From Candidatus Aminicenantota bacterium (GTDB lineage: Bacteria; Acidobacteriota; Aminicenantia; Aminicenantales; Saccharicenantaceae): a DNA stretch of 64,000 bases. The stretch lies in assembly GCA_026393975.1 (NCBI GenBank), contig JAPKZD010000009.1:124001-188000 (forward strand), given 5' to 3'. The position numbers and the translations under genes were made by a program. The notes under the pieces were generated by a model. It was not told the DNA's origin and did no database searches. It saw nothing but the letters and a program-made list of their open reading frames with translations. Shown here one piece after another: positions 27,077-32,867 of the stretch (positions within the stretch are counted from its first letter, which is position 1; each line of letters starts with the position of its first letter).

Positions 27077-28465
27077 CTACTTCTTGATGGTCGAGATGAA
27101 CGCTTCGACCTCGGGGATGCCGCCCTGCAAGATGAGGTAGCCGTTGGAGGGCTCGCGCTCCGTGATCTCGCCCGCGACCGGCGTCAGCATGATCTTGCGG
27201 ACCTCCTCGAGGTCGGTCGTCCGCCCCAGGGCCCAGGCCAGCTTGACGTAGGCCACCTCGGGCAGCATGTTCGCCGCCGGGATGACTCCGAGCTCCATCA
27301 TGTCCCGTCCCGTGTCGTAGACGTACATCTGGACGTAGCCCCAGAGGGTCTGGACGGTCATGTAGACGGCGATGCCCTTCTCCCGGCACCGCGCCAGCGC
27401 GGGGTAGAGCGGTTTGTTGACGTGACCCAGGCCCGTCCCGGCGATGACGATCCCCCGGTAGCCGTTGTCGATGAGCGCGTCGATGATGTCCGGCTTCATG
27501 TTGGGGTAGTAGTAGACGATCGATACGCGCTCCTCGAACGAGGTGTCGATCTTGACGCTCCGGTCGGCCCGGCGCCGTTTGTAATCCTGGCGGAGGGGCG
27601 TGATCTTGTCGCGGCTGACCATGGCAATCGGGATGTCGCCGATCGTCCGGAAAGTTGAGCGATAGCTCGAGTGCATCTTACGGACGCGGGTCCCCCGGTG
27701 GAGCAGGCCGTAGGTGTCCGAGGTCGGCCCAAACATGCAGATCATGACCTCGGCGATGTCGCTCTCGGCCGCGGTCTTGACGCTGTGCATGAGGTTGAGG
27801 GCGGCGTCGGAGGATGGCCGGTCGGAGGAGCGCTGGGAGCCGACCATGACGATGGGCACGGGCGAGTCCTGGACCATGAACGACAGGATGGCCGACGTGT
27901 GGTGCATGGTGTCGGTGCCGTGACCGATGACGACGCCCTGGACTCCCTTCTCGATCTCGCGGCCGATGGCCTTGGCCGTGGCGATGTACTGCTCCGGGCC
28001 CATGTTCTCGCTGAAGACGCCGAAAAGCTTCTCGGTCTCGAGGTTGCAGATGTCGGCGAGCTCGGGCACAGAGCCGTAGAGCTCTCCCGGCGAGAAAGCC
28101 GGGATGACGGCCCCCGTCCGGTAGTCGAGGCGGCTGGCGATCGTCCCGCCCGTGCCAAGGAGCTTGACCCTGGGTTTCCCAGGGTCGAAGGGGAATTCCT
28201 TTTCGGGGATCTTGTAATGCGCTTCCTTGCGGCCGGTGATGGCGACGGCTTCGATCGAGCGGGCCAGAAGGCCGATGTTGTAGCCCGAGCGGAGCTTGAT
28301 GACGACATGGTGAGGGTCGGCGGTTTCCGAGCGCGGCAGGATGATGCCCGTATAGGCGCCCCGGGAGGTCTTGATCTCGACGTCGCTCCAGACCATGGCC
28401 CCGAAGCTCTTAAGCACGGCCAGGGCCTCGCCCCGGTAGCCCTTGTAAGAGTCGTCGCCGGCCAT
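27077..28465 (-). CDS. gatD: Glutamyl-tRNA(Gln) amidotransferase subunit D (GatD)
   Basis: 462 residues: an N-terminal beta-barrel domain (about 1-80, YKGYRGEALAVLKSFG) followed by an L-asparaginase-like domain with KLLGTGGTIAS (first catalytic threonine), GHGTDTMHHT (second threonine-aspartate pair) and GSQRSSDRPSSDAALN. The extra N-terminal domain and the gatE neighbour distinguish it from plain L-asparaginase. GatD releases ammonia from Gln or Asn for the GatE kinase. The ATG at 28465 forms TGATG with the gatE stop and has AGGAG eight bases upstream; an ATG two codons earlier is worse placed. GatDE is described as an archaeal system, so its presence here is unusual. Confidence 0.9.
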   Translation of the reverse strand: MAGDDSYKGYRGEALAVLKSFGAMVWSDVEIKTSRGAYTGIILPRSETADPHHVVIKLRSGYNIGLLARSIEAVAITGRKEAHYKIPEKEFPFDPGKPRVKLLGTGGTIASRLDYRTGAVIPAFSPGELYGSVPELADICNLETEKLFGVFSENMGPEQYIATAKAIGREIEKGVQGVVIGHGTDTMHHTSAILSFMVQDSPVPIVMVGSQRSSDRPSSDAALNLMHSVKTAAESDIAEVMICMFGPTSDTYGLLHRGTRVRKMHSSYRSTFRTIGDIPIAMVSRDKITPLRQDYKRRRADRSVKIDTSFEERVSIVYYYPNMKPDIIDALIDNGYRGIVIAGTGLGHVNKPLYPALARCREKGIAVYMTVQTLWGYVQMYVYDTGRDMMELGVIPAANMLPEVAYVKLAWALGRTTDLEEVRKIMLTPVAGEITEREPSNGYLILQGGIPEVEAFISTIKK

Positions 28466-30393
28466 CAGCATTTCTCCTCGGCGGCCGCCCGGACACGCTC
28501 GACGATCGAGGCGCCCTCGACGCGGCCGCGCAGGGCGGTCATGACCAAACCCATCAGGGCGTGGACTTTCTTGTCAGGGTTGTGGATCTTAATAGATCGC
28601 AGGGCGGCGGACGACGCCTGGACCTGCGCATAGACCTCGACCTCGGAGGCCGGTCGGATCTCGCCCGCCTGGGGCAGGGTCCCGCCGCGGGAGACCGTCT
28701 CCATGAACGCCAGGACGCCGTCCCTGGATATTTTCCTGTCCCTGAAAAGGGCGAAAATCCAACGAAGGCTGTCCTCGTCCAAGCGCCTCACGTCCATCCC
28801 CTTCTTCTTCAACCGTTTGCGGAACTGCACGAGGGCCACAGAAGCGGCGACCGGACTGATCTTCCAATCCTTGACCAGGACTTCGAACAGGCCCGCCAGA
28901 CGCGACGCGGCCAGCGGCTCGACGACATCCGCCGGGACGCCGATCTCCCTGTACCACGATTCCCGCGTCCAAATCGGCACCGGGAGGCGCCGCCGGATCG
29001 TTTCGAGGCGCTCCTCGGTGACTTGCTTCGGCGGCAGGTCCGTGTCCGGGTACATCCGGTCCGGGCCGGGAAGGATGCGCTCGAAGCCGTTCGTCCCGTC
29101 CCGGAGGGCCTGGCGCGTCTCGGAGGGGATCCCGGTCGCGGCCTCCCGCGCCCGGATGGCGATCTCCTGAGCGCCCGTCTTGACGTCCTCGCGGCCGCCC
29201 CAGACGAGGACGAGCGTGTCGTCCTCGGTCGCCTTGACGGCTTTCCGCACGGCCAGCCACTCGGCGCTCGAGAGGGTCTCGGAGGAGCTGTCGGAATGGA
29301 CGATGTTGGGCAGTTTCGTCAGGCAGGCGACGACCCGGACGCGGTCGGAGATCTCGCGCGAGAACCGGGTGTTCGGCTGCGTCTGCCAATTGAGGAGGTC
29401 GCGGAAGCCGTGGAGGACGACACAGCCGGCCACGAGGCCCGCGTCGAGGGCGTCGCGGATGGGCTGGTAGCTCGTCTTCTGGAGGAGGCGGGTGACGTCC
29501 TCGGTCTCCGCCTTGAACGTCTCCGGCGTGACGCCGCGGCCGTGGAGCTCGTCGCGGAGCCGGAGGAGGTTCCACTGCCTCATGGCCTCGTGGTAGGTGA
29601 GCAGCGGGATGCGGGGGATGCGCGGCACGCCCTTGATCTCGACGCGCGTGCCGCCGCGGACACTGACGTTGACGTCCTCGCGGGCGGCGCCGATGCCGGT
29701 GCGGACGTCGCCCGTGCTCCGGACGAGGCGGCGACAGATCTGGGCGACCTCGGCGACCTCCTGGGGCGTCCGCATGTCGGGCCCGGTCACGGTCTCGATG
29801 AGGGGCATGCCCAAGCGGTCCGTGAGATAGGTCCGGCGATGGCCGACGTCGCTGACCTCGCGGCAGGCGTCCTCTTCAAGGCCGAGCTGGATGATCGTAA
29901 TGCGGCGGTCCTTATAAGGGATCCAACCGTTGACCCCGACGATCGTCGTCCGCTGGAAACCCGTCGGGATGCTGCCGTCGAGATACTGCTTACGGGCGAT
30001 GTGAAGCTCGTCGACGAGGTAGAGGCTGTAGAGCATGGCCACACCCAGGGCGATGTCGAGGGCACGCTCGTCGATCATGAACGGCGGCGTGTCGTCCATC
30101 TCGTAGGTGCAGACCGTCTCCCGGTTGATCCGGTAGATGATCTCCTTCTTCGTTTTGAACTCCATGAGGGCCGTGCCGTCGTACTCGCCGAGCTCGGACA
30201 GGGTCGGGCGCATGTGGCGGAGGATCTCGGCGTCGTATTTATCGCTGTAGCGTCCGGCCGGACAGCGGCAGAAAAGCTTCTTTTCGGTCAGGAGCTGTTG
30301 GTGGATCTCGAGGCCGGAGCGGAATCCGACCTCCGCGTAGTCGGCGTCGGTCATTTCGGCGAACGGCTTGAAATTGAACTGATATTCGCTCAT
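28465..30393 (-). CDS. gatE: Glutamyl-tRNA(Gln) amidotransferase subunit E (GatE)
   Basis: 642 residues, close to archaeal GatE and much longer than bacterial GatB (about 480). It has the GatB/GatE kinase core (VGFRSGLEIHQQLLTEKKLFCRCPAG, MDDTPPFMIDE, ETVTGPDM, VRGGTRVEIKGVPRI), an AspRS-like insertion (about 270-420), and a C-terminal YqeY-like tail. The protein phosphorylates Glu-tRNA(Gln) and amidates it with ammonia from GatD. The start at 30393 was chosen because homology begins there (MSEYQFNFKPFAEM); an upstream extension to 30531 would cross the promoter region. Stop and gatD start overlap as TGATG. Confidence 0.9.
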   Translation of the reverse strand: MSEYQFNFKPFAEMTDADYAEVGFRSGLEIHQQLLTEKKLFCRCPAGRYSDKYDAEILRHMRPTLSELGEYDGTALMEFKTKKEIIYRINRETVCTYEMDDTPPFMIDERALDIALGVAMLYSLYLVDELHIARKQYLDGSIPTGFQRTTIVGVNGWIPYKDRRITIIQLGLEEDACREVSDVGHRRTYLTDRLGMPLIETVTGPDMRTPQEVAEVAQICRRLVRSTGDVRTGIGAAREDVNVSVRGGTRVEIKGVPRIPRIPLLTYHEAMRQWNLLRLRDELHGRGVTPETFKAETEDVTRLLQKTSYQPIRDALDAGLVAGCVVLHGFRDLLNWQTQPNTRFSREISDRVRVVACLTKLPNIVHSDSSSETLSSAEWLAVRKAVKATEDDTLVLVWGGREDVKTGAQEIAIRAREAATGIPSETRQALRDGTNGFERILPGPDRMYPDTDLPPKQVTEERLETIRRRLPVPIWTRESWYREIGVPADVVEPLAASRLAGLFEVLVKDWKISPVAASVALVQFRKRLKKKGMDVRRLDEDSLRWIFALFRDRKISRDGVLAFMETVSRGGTLPQAGEIRPASEVEVYAQVQASSAALRSIKIHNPDKKVHALMGLVMTALRGRVEGASIVERVRAAAEEKC

Positions 30394-30426
30394 AGGCTTG
30401 GCCCATTCTCCAGGGACAAGAGGGGC

Positions 30427-30432
30427 ATTATA
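30427..30432 (-). promoter_or_regulatory. -10 box upstream of gatE
   Basis: TATAAT on the minus strand, 33 bases before the gatE start. No convincing -35 box is visible at the right distance. It is divergent from the hppA promoter. Confidence 0.35.
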
Positions 30433-30462
30433 ACATATTAACCGTTGAGACGTTCGCCTGGG

Positions 30463-30490
30463 TTGATTTTTGCCTGGAGTTATGTAAAAT
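30463..30490 (+). promoter_or_regulatory. Sigma70 promoter of hppA
   Basis: TTGATT at 30463-30468, 16-bp spacer, TAAAAT at 30485-30490. The leader to ATG 30534 is about 36 nt and contains AGAGGAGA. Confidence 0.55.
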
Positions 30491-30533
30491 AGGCCCCTTC
30501 TCCCCGCTTTTATTATTTTCAGAGGAGACACGC

Positions 30534-32867
30534 ATGAACATTCTGGGTCTGGCCCGCCATGGGTTGAATTCGTTCGAGCAGATCGCCATCATGGGCGTCA
30601 TGCTGACGGCCTTCATCAGCCTCTTATATGCCTGGATGCTGCGCAAGGTCGTTCTCAAGAAAGACAAGGGCACGCCGAAGATGCAGGAGATCTGGAACGC
30701 CATCCGCATCGGCGCCGACAGCTACCTGAAGACGCAGCTCCGCAAGATCCTGCCCATCATCGGCGGACTGACGGTGGCCTTGTTCCTCAGCGTCTACGTC
30801 GTCCCGGCCAGCCGCGAGGCCGTGGCCGAATTCGGCGCCAGGAACGCCCAGATCATCGTCGCCATCGGCCGGACGATCGCCTTCATCATGGGCGCCGGCT
30901 TCTCGCTCCTCGTCGGCCAGCTCGGCATGCGCATGGCCATCCAGGCCAACGTCCGGGCCGCGTCGGCCGCCCGGCGGGGCTTCAACGAGGCTCTGTCCAT
31001 CGCCTACTACGCCGGGACGATCACCGGGATGCTGACCGACGGCCTGGGCCTCTTCGGCGGCACCCTGATCTTCATCGTCTTCGGCACAGCCGCCCCCGAC
31101 GCCCTGCTCGGGTTCGGCTTCGGCGGCACCCTGCTCGCCCTGTTCATGCGCGTCGGCGGCGGCATCTTCACCAAAGCGGCCGACATCGGCGCCGACCTCG
31201 TCGGCAAGGTCGAGAAGGACATCCCCGAGGACGACCCGAGGAACGCGGCCGTCGTGGCCGACCTCGTCGGCGACAACGTCGGCGACTGCGCCGGCATGGC
31301 CGCGGACATCTTCGAGTCCTACGAGGTGACCATCGTCTCCGGGCTGATCCTGGGGTTGGCCCTGGTGGCCCTCGACCCGGCCCACGCCCTGAAGTGGATC
31401 GTCTATCCCCTGATCATCCGGGCTATCGGCGTCATCTCCTCGATCCTGGGGACGTTCACCGTCCCGATCTGGGAGCGCTTCCCGATCAAGTTCCTCCGGG
31501 CCAAGGACGCCGAGGAGGCCATGTTCCGCTCCTACGAAGTCTCGAGCGTCAACACCATCCTCTGGTCCTTCGTCGTGGCCGTCAATTACGCCCACGACTG
31601 GCGGCTGGCCATGCTGACCTCGGTCGGGGTCGGGCTGGCCGTAGCTTTCAACCCGCTGACGTCCTACTTCACCTCGACGCGCAAGGGACCGGTCAAGGAG
31701 ATCGTCAGGTCGACCAAGACTGGGCCGGCGACGACCATCCTCTCCGGCCTGGCCGTGGGGATGGAGTCGAGCGTTTGGGCCGTCGTCATGATCGCTGTCA
31801 GCTTCATCATCGCCCTGGCCCTCTACAGCTCGGCCGGAGCGATCTACGTCCTCTACGGCGTGGCCATGGTCGGCATCGGCATGCTCAGCCATACGGGCAA
31901 CAACGTGGCCATGGACTCCTACGGCCCGATCTCCGACAACGCCAACGGCATCGCCGAGATGGCCTGGCACGACCAGTGCGACGAGGAGACCGTCAAGGCC
32001 CGCCAGATCATGGCCGACCTCGACGCCGTCGGGAACACGACCAAGGCCATCACCAAGGGGGTGGCCATCGCCTCGGCGGTCATAGCGGCGGTCAGCCTCT
32101 TCGCCTCGTACATCACGGACGTCGGACGCGTCCAGCTCCAGCTCGGCGTCAAGGAGATCATGACCTCCATTCGCCTTTCGGATACCAAGGTCTTCGTCGG
32201 CCTGCTCCTCGGGGGCGCCCTGCCCTGGCTCTTCAGCTCGCTCTCGCTCCGGGCCGTCACCCGGGCGGCCGGCCTCATCGTCGAGGAAGTCCGGCGGCAG
32301 TTCAAGATCCCCGGGCTGATGGAAGGCAAGGTCAAGCCGGACTACGCCCGGGTCGTCGGGATTTCGACGGCCGCGGCCCAGAAGGAGCTCGTCCCGCTGG
32401 CCATGATCTCGGTCCTCATGCCGATCATCGTCGGCCTGGTGCTCCAGGTCGAGGCCCTGGGCGGCTTCCTCGCGGGGATCATCCTGAGCGGCCAGCTCCT
32501 GGCCGTCTTCATGGCCAACGCGGGCGGCGCCTGGGACAACGCCAAGAAAACGATCGAGGACGAGCCCAAGGACGCGATCGCCTGCACCGGCAAGGGCTCG
32601 GACCGGCACCAGGCCGGCGTCGTCGGCGACACGGTCGGCGACCCGCTCAAGGATACGGCCGGCCCGGCCCTAAATCCCATGATCAAGGTCACGAACCTGG
32701 TCAGCCTCATCGCTGCGCCCATCATGGTCAAGTACAGCAAGATGAGCATCGGCCTGGCGGCGGTCGTGGCCGTCCTGCTCGCCGGAGTCATCTGGGCCAT
32801 CTGGAAGAGCAAGCGGGAGGCCCCGTCGCTGTTTACGGAAATCGAGGGCAAGCTGGCTAAGAAGTAA
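30534..32867 (+). CDS. hppA: Membrane pyrophosphatase, K+-independent H+-translocating type
   Basis: 777 residues with about 16 membrane helices. The pyrophosphate site motifs are intact: DIGADLVGKVE and EDDPRNAAVVADLVGDNVGDCAGMAADIFES (shown in part) near 218-260, and GVVGDTVGDPLKDTAGPALNP near 700. In GNTTKAIT (about 499-506) lysine and threonine occupy the two positions that define the K+-independent class, where K+-dependent enzymes have Ala and Gly. The enzyme pumps protons out of the cytoplasm using PPi, saving ATP during biosynthesis. AGAGGAGA precedes the ATG. It is divergent from gatE. Confidence 0.95.
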   Translation: MNILGLARHGLNSFEQIAIMGVMLTAFISLLYAWMLRKVVLKKDKGTPKMQEIWNAIRIGADSYLKTQLRKILPIIGGLTVALFLSVYVVPASREAVAEFGARNAQIIVAIGRTIAFIMGAGFSLLVGQLGMRMAIQANVRAASAARRGFNEALSIAYYAGTITGMLTDGLGLFGGTLIFIVFGTAAPDALLGFGFGGTLLALFMRVGGGIFTKAADIGADLVGKVEKDIPEDDPRNAAVVADLVGDNVGDCAGMAADIFESYEVTIVSGLILGLALVALDPAHALKWIVYPLIIRAIGVISSILGTFTVPIWERFPIKFLRAKDAEEAMFRSYEVSSVNTILWSFVVAVNYAHDWRLAMLTSVGVGLAVAFNPLTSYFTSTRKGPVKEIVRSTKTGPATTILSGLAVGMESSVWAVVMIAVSFIIALALYSSAGAIYVLYGVAMVGIGMLSHTGNNVAMDSYGPISDNANGIAEMAWHDQCDEETVKARQIMADLDAVGNTTKAITKGVAIASAVIAAVSLFASYITDVGRVQLQLGVKEIMTSIRLSDTKVFVGLLLGGALPWLFSSLSLRAVTRAAGLIVEEVRRQFKIPGLMEGKVKPDYARVVGISTAAAQKELVPLAMISVLMPIIVGLVLQVEALGGFLAGIILSGQLLAVFMANAGGAWDNAKKTIEDEPKDAIACTGKGSDRHQAGVVGDTVGDPLKDTAGPALNPMIKVTNLVSLIAAPIMVKYSKMSIGLAAVVAVLLAGVIWAIWKSKREAPSLFTEIEGKLAKK

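Follow-up and report, generated by a model that had tools for sequence, protein, structure and literature searches.

A gatE-gatD operon in an Aminicenantes bacterium that also encodes glutaminyl-tRNA synthetase

The gatED locus and its products

The window, a stretch of 64,000 nucleotides (nt) from a Candidatus Aminicenantota bacterium of the phylum Acidobacteriota (contig JAPKZD010000009.1, positions 124,001 to 188,000 of the forward strand), carries on its minus strand gatE and gatD, the genes for the two subunits of a GatDE-type Glu-tRNA(Gln) amidotransferase. GatDE accompanies glutaminyl-tRNA synthetase (GlnRS) in this genome and in many of its relatives and does not replace it. The features of the locus, in window coordinates, are as follows.

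27077-28471, minus strand: gatD, 464 amino acids (aa); glutaminase subunit, type I asparaginase-like
28253-28387, minus strand: N-terminal barrel of GatD (PF18195), residues 29-73; 47.3 bits against 25.7
28463-28471, minus strand: overlap of gatE stop and gatD start (ATGCTGATG); translational coupling as read from the sequence
28465-30393, minus strand: gatE, 642 aa; Glu-tRNA(Gln) amidotransferase subunit E (kinase/transamidase), leading the operon
28489-28890, minus strand: YqeY-type tail of GatE, residues 502-635 (PF02637, 31.1 bits against 27)
29134-29538, minus strand: insert of GatE resembling aspartyl-tRNA synthetase (AspRS; GAD-type), about residues 286-420, limits approximate
30394-30533, no strand: divergent intergenic region of 140 bp between gatE and a membrane pyrophosphatase gene

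Both subunits are intact, as the earlier note on this DNA had claimed: the frames contain no internal stops, and the products pass the NCBIfam cut-offs. For GatD the scores are 518 bits with NF003217 (cut-off 310) and 517 with TIGR02153 (324), and for GatE 527 bits with NF003107 (456) and 448 with TIGR00134 (320). GatE reaches only 110-133 bits on the GatB models (cut-off 315-338), and GatD scores 390 bits on the asparaginase model TIGR00519. The Pfam GatD_N, asparaginase, GatB_N and YqeY domains each exceed their gathering scores; the GatD barrel and the AspRS-like insert, both noticed earlier, are present, the insert splitting the PF02934 match (GatE 27-463).

The closest solved structures for both subunits are the archaeal GatDE complexes 1zq1 and 2d6f, with 1zq1_C as the best sequence match of GatE in the PDB (9.7e-100). 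An AlphaFold (AF2) model of GatE, built on an alignment of 44 window and locus sequences, has a predicted local distance difference test (pLDDT) score of 87.6 and a predicted TM-score (pTM) of 0.86; Foldseek returned 1zq1_C first (2e-43), GatB chains second and weak AspRS matches, which presumably come via the insert domain. Across 19 GatEs, two archaeal sequences among them, H31, E173, E174, D175 and E200 are invariant, residues that we take to be putative Mg/ATP-site positions (H31, E173-E174-D175, E200). The GatD motifs GTGGT, HGTDTM and RKMH are conserved in an alignment of bacterial and archaeal sequences and presumably lie in the active site, where general knowledge of type I asparaginases would place them. 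GatD is 50% identical to its Pyrococcus abyssi counterpart and 47% to that of Methanothermobacter thermautotrophicus; for GatE the identity to the proteins of these two archaea is about 35%. The YqeY-type tail, which binds the tRNA D-arm in archaeal GatE, is the least conserved portion of the bacterial protein. From these sequences, gatED is predicted to encode both halves of a heterodimeric amidotransferase, complete in its parts and belonging to a bacterial branch of GatDE that is distinct from the archaeal one.

The gene order, gatE then gatD on the same strand, recurs in 62 of the 66 other loci that contain both genes. The TGATG coupling described in the earlier note arises with the second in-frame ATG of gatD; with the first, the frames overlap by 7 nt (gatE ...AAATGCTGA, gatD ATGCTGATGGCC). 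The 140-bp divergent gap presumably carries the promoter of the operon, to judge from its position. On its other side lies the gene for a membrane-bound pyrophosphatase (window 30534-32867, 777 aa), divergent from gatED. This layout is kept in genomes G162, G209 and G264; it is conserved in the genus and was seen in none of the remaining loci examined. The neighbours offer no functional hint, as among 93 flanking open reading frames (ORFs) each Pfam family occurs in at most four.

The host genome (G000; 2.95 Mb in 25 contigs) is 95% complete with 0.33% contamination. The gatE-gatD pair and the divergent pyrophosphatase gene have an identical setting in three congeneric genomes, in one of them on a 1.3 Mb contig. 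Mis-assembly or contamination by an archaeal contig, the latter already thought unlikely in the earlier note, is ruled out by this matching context and the low contamination. The ratio of nonsynonymous to synonymous substitution rates (dN/dS) across the congeners is 0.14-0.25 for gatE and 0.03-0.13 for gatD; both genes are under purifying selection.

GatDE, GlnRS and GatCAB in the host and other genomes

The earlier note saw in GatDE the archaeal route to Gln-tRNA(Gln), standing in for GatCAB or GlnRS, and proposed a search for gatCAB and glnS elsewhere in the genome. That view does not hold as stated: the host GlnRS, encoded at C17:51021-52604, is intact and scores 712 bits (cut-off 425.8), and with it a substitution of GatDE for an absent GlnRS is ruled out. 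The gltX-glnS pair lies on the gatED contig, about 100 kb from gatED, with glnS directly behind the glutamyl-tRNA synthetase (GluRS) gene and the ends overlapping. Of the other enzyme, neither GatB (best match 85 bits, to GatE itself) nor GatA (best match a sub-cut-off amidase, 179/481 bits) was found in the 95%-complete assembly; within that assembly a hidden GatCAB is ruled out, and the relatives concur. The genome also encodes asparaginyl-tRNA synthetase (AsnRS).

A single tRNA-Gln gene (UUG) is present; its D-loop is of the usual bacterial kind, and it has U1-A72 and G73. An archaeal-like or second tRNA(Gln) was looked for and not seen in G000. The archaeal feature A1-U72 is absent: U1-A72 is found in the host and in the 29 others read in the class. 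The absence of a CUG isoacceptor is weak evidence, since the assembly lacks tRNA-Asp and tRNA-Ile as well. A selenocysteine tRNA gene lies at a contig end (G000:C5:240450-240539).

In some genomes of the phylum with GlnRS and without GatDE, G001 (L326) and G031 (L328) among them, GlnRS bears a C-terminal extension resembling the YqeY/GatB-GatE tail and ending GQQGLIGFFMGQVM...; such extensions are known from Deinococcus. The host GlnRS has no such tail; the host GatE has one.

Within the window's class the pairing of the two enzymes is complete: all 15 GatE-positive genomes have GlnRS and none has GatB, whereas all 18 GatE-negative genomes have GatB and none has GlnRS; GatB presence throughout the phylum sample was judged from additional weaker matches to the GatE profile. 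On the rpoB tree of the class these two states require at least four changes, three of them forced by supported branches. The alternation of GatDE/GlnRS with GatCAB is a repeated concerted change, although three to four contrasts fall below sign-test significance. In the phylum at large, GlnRS is encoded by 38 of 42 GatE-positive and 144 of 255 GatE-negative genomes (Fisher p 1e-5, uncorrected for kinship); the four GatE-positive genomes without it (G012, G090, G239, G276) are fragmented or incomplete. Wide and vertical inheritance in the phylum, which the earlier note had raised as a point against novelty, is borne out only as to breadth: GatE occurs in 42 of 297 genomes (in G090 as a fragment), but patchily and with horizontal movement in the tree.

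A profile scan of one-per-species genomes yielded at least 573 relatives. Record titles of the best 80 of these name, besides Aminicenantes and other Acidobacteriota, the Ignavibacteriota, Bacteroidota, Planctomycetota, Cloacimonadota, Calditrichota, Krumholzibacteriota, Fermentibacterota, Myxococcota, Gemmatimonadota, Zixibacteria, Eisenbacteria, WOR-3, KSB1, Coatesbacteria and Caldisericota; about 15 phyla other than that of the host are represented. Among 50 GatDE genomes from the scan, a set of GatDE carriers with no GatE-free control group, 41 have GlnRS and 17 have GatB. GlnRS is not strictly required for GatDE, since nine of the 50 are without it. One of these, a single-contig Phycisphaerales chromosome (CP070718.1; G320, L123), has GatDE and GatCAB and no GlnRS at 1e-60, which is an archaea-like combination in a bacterium. 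In a search for further archaeal sequences, the viral contigs gave none and the plasmids one frameshifted copy, an unannotated gatE on the Natrinema thermotolerans megaplasmid CP031304.1 (L187:3001-4838).

In a GatE tree rooted with GatB, in which the archaea are represented by three sequences, all euryarchaeal and none from TACK, Asgard or DPANN, the bacterial GatEs form one clade (Shimodaira-Hasegawa-like approximate likelihood ratio test, SH-aLRT, 96), separate from the euryarchaeal sequences (99). The window's genus groups with Ignavibacteria, Bacteroidota and Caldithrix (23 rows, 99), and the remaining Aminicenantes families are placed elsewhere within the bacterial clade. The term "archaeal-type" used in the earlier note is thus apt insofar as these are true GatDE orthologues, but the nearest relatives of the window's copy are bacterial and in this tree belong to a clade of their own. 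Since the Aminicenantes GatEs are scattered in the tree, gatE has moved horizontally among bacteria. The GlnRS tree runs parallel: there the class is divided into two or more supported groups, with G272 apart from them; each of the two enzymes enters the class from several points of its own tree. With a distant root and three archaeal sequences, the bacterial branch may be ancient or may have been acquired early on from archaea outside the sample.

The aligned GluRSs are of two kinds by the residue equivalent to Thermus thermophilus Arg358, which marks discrimination against tRNA(Gln) in that species, a rule that breaks down in Helicobacter pylori GluRS1, where the residue is noted to have no effect (PMC3927822). 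GatCAB genomes of the class in which both copies were read have one Arg-type and one Gly/Asn-type GluRS, and the GatDE genomes have the Arg type exclusively. The sole GluRS found in the host (433 aa, G000:C17; L064:6679-7980) has Arg320 at this position, by a mapping that equates fragment residue 167 with residue 358 of 1j09, counted from the end of the match with the last 18 residues assumed gapless. The GluRSs of the window's genus are short and lack about 40 residues where the zinc-binding/CP1 part would be. G154, which has GatDE and GlnRS, has two GluRSs, both with Arg; the second (L192, G154:C32) has a local motif like the Gly/Asn-type copies and is possibly a converted tRNA(Gln)-type enzyme. 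Taken at face value, the residue pattern suggests that genomes with GlnRS and GatDE have neither GatCAB nor the tRNA(Gln)-charging GluRS. GatDE would then lack any evident large source of Glu-tRNA(Gln), which is the central puzzle.

Candidate roles of GatDE beside GlnRS

As to chemistry, GatD is almost certainly a glutaminase whose ammonia passes to GatE, where a carboxylate is activated and amidated. Since tRNA(Gln) is already served by GlnRS and GluRS appears to discriminate against it, we favor, at a probability of about 0.55, an active amidotransferase that serves in the backup or clean-up amidation of Glu-tRNA(Gln). GatD would hydrolyze Gln (or Asn) and channel the ammonia to GatE, which would phosphorylate the gamma-carboxyl of Glu on the mischarged tRNA and then amidate it. 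Residual Glu-tRNA(Gln) could come from leakage of GluRS or from misactivation of Glu by GlnRS, and GatDE would assume a protective role that was lost when GlnRS took the place of GatCAB and of the GluRS of tRNA(Gln) type.

Several observations weigh against this proposal. A truly discriminating GluRS may leave little Glu-tRNA(Gln) needing correction, and many bacteria with GlnRS have no amidotransferase at all, as exemplified in the phylum by G002, G078 and G081. Conservation is poor in the tail of GatE, the part with which the archaeal enzyme binds tRNA, and tRNA(Gln) lacks the archaeal determinant A1-U72. The nine GatDE genomes without GlnRS, among them the complete Phycisphaerales chromosome with GatCAB, show that GatDE does not strictly depend on GlnRS, and no conserved neighbor among the 93 flanking ORFs backs the role.

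Two alternatives are each unlikely. According to the first, GatDE and a leaky GluRS would form the main route, or a full route under some conditions, with GlnRS as an accessory, so that the cell would have two complete routes. All parts of the indirect route are present except a demonstrated nondiscriminating GluRS, and the exception in H. pylori means that an Arg at the critical site need not settle the matter; moreover, GatDE may suffice in four of the nine genomes without GlnRS, which have no GatB. These four are, however, metagenome-assembled genomes (MAGs) of unknown completeness. The Gly/Asn-type GluRS is lost in the class exactly where GatDE occurs, contrary to what an indirect main route would require, and the host has an intact GlnRS with a tRNA(Gln) whose G73 and U1-A72 suit the preference of that enzyme.

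The second, which we hold to be about as improbable, is that the bacterial enzyme has been repurposed, with unchanged chemistry directed at another carrier (a different tRNA, a tRNA-like RNA or the carboxylate of a protein or peptide); co-occurrence with GlnRS would then mark the release of GatDE from its old job. GatDE is indeed found where GlnRS already covers the textbook task, and a GluRS of the predicted discriminating type takes away its substrate. The poorly conserved tail, a bacterial-specific C-terminal stretch in GatD and loop changes are in keeping with such a shift. Yet bacterial and archaeal GatDEs share their catalytic residues, no conserved neighboring gene points to another pathway, and the perfect, nonrandom pairing with GlnRS in the class implies a link to tRNA(Gln). 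Least of all do we credit a neutral relic gained with GlnRS and kept by chance: the distribution is patchy, spread is horizontal and GlnRS alone suffices in many relatives, but both subunits are intact in very different lineages with dN/dS far under 1, the two genes are adjacent at nearly all loci and change repeatedly together with GlnRS, and gatED and glnS are physically unlinked.

Comparison with known systems

The bacterial GatDE resembles the archaeal enzymes of P. abyssi (1ZQ1) and M. thermautotrophicus (2D6F) in its subunits, domain order and catalytic residues, including the barrel of GatD and the AspRS-like insert and tail of GatE. It differs in its place in the GatE tree, in a separate bacterial clade, and in its diverged GatE tail. 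Its GatD has a C-terminal stretch, EPxNGYLIxQGGxPEVExF, that is absent from the two archaeal GatDs, a provisional difference as the archaeal pieces were locally aligned. Its setting differs too: tRNA(Gln) has U1-A72 and not A1-U72, and GlnRS is accompanied by a bacterial GluRS of apparently discriminating type, without GatCAB. With GatCAB it shares the logic of transamidation, GatB having the catalytic core of GatE and a YqeY tail, but the host encodes no GatA or GatB above cut-off. With type I asparaginases GatD shares the glutaminase fold and the catalytic Thr/Asp/Lys motifs; it is set apart by the barrel, by pairing with GatE and by passing the GatD equivalog models. The direct GlnRS route yields the same product, Gln-tRNA(Gln), by different chemistry, and in the published view organisms use either that route or the amidotransferase.

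According to reviews, GatDE is now restricted to archaea, and its coevolution with tRNA(Gln) blocks the acquisition of GlnRS and explains the absence of that enzyme there (PMC9499178; also PMC8007984); a survey knows of no bacterium with both routes to Gln-tRNA(Gln) (PMC4206432). We found no report of bacterial GatDE in the open-license literature searched. The present data point to hundreds of bacterial genomes in many phyla that carry GatDE, mostly with GlnRS where this was checked. A tentative reading, to which we give somewhat less than even weight, is that GatDE is as long-standing in bacteria as in archaea and that its bacterial branch acts with GlnRS, in the clean-up of Glu-tRNA(Gln) or on a new substrate. 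If true, a GatDE plus GlnRS branch in bacteria would overturn the published notions of GatDE as an archaeal signature, of its exclusion of GlnRS and of the lack of any dual-route bacterium. How amide aminoacyl-tRNA synthesis arose, and whether an amidotransferase beside GlnRS has a role in translational fidelity, would become directly testable in cultivable bacteria. The kind of enzyme is already known and is matched by public family models; what is new is the bacterial clade and its genomic pairing.

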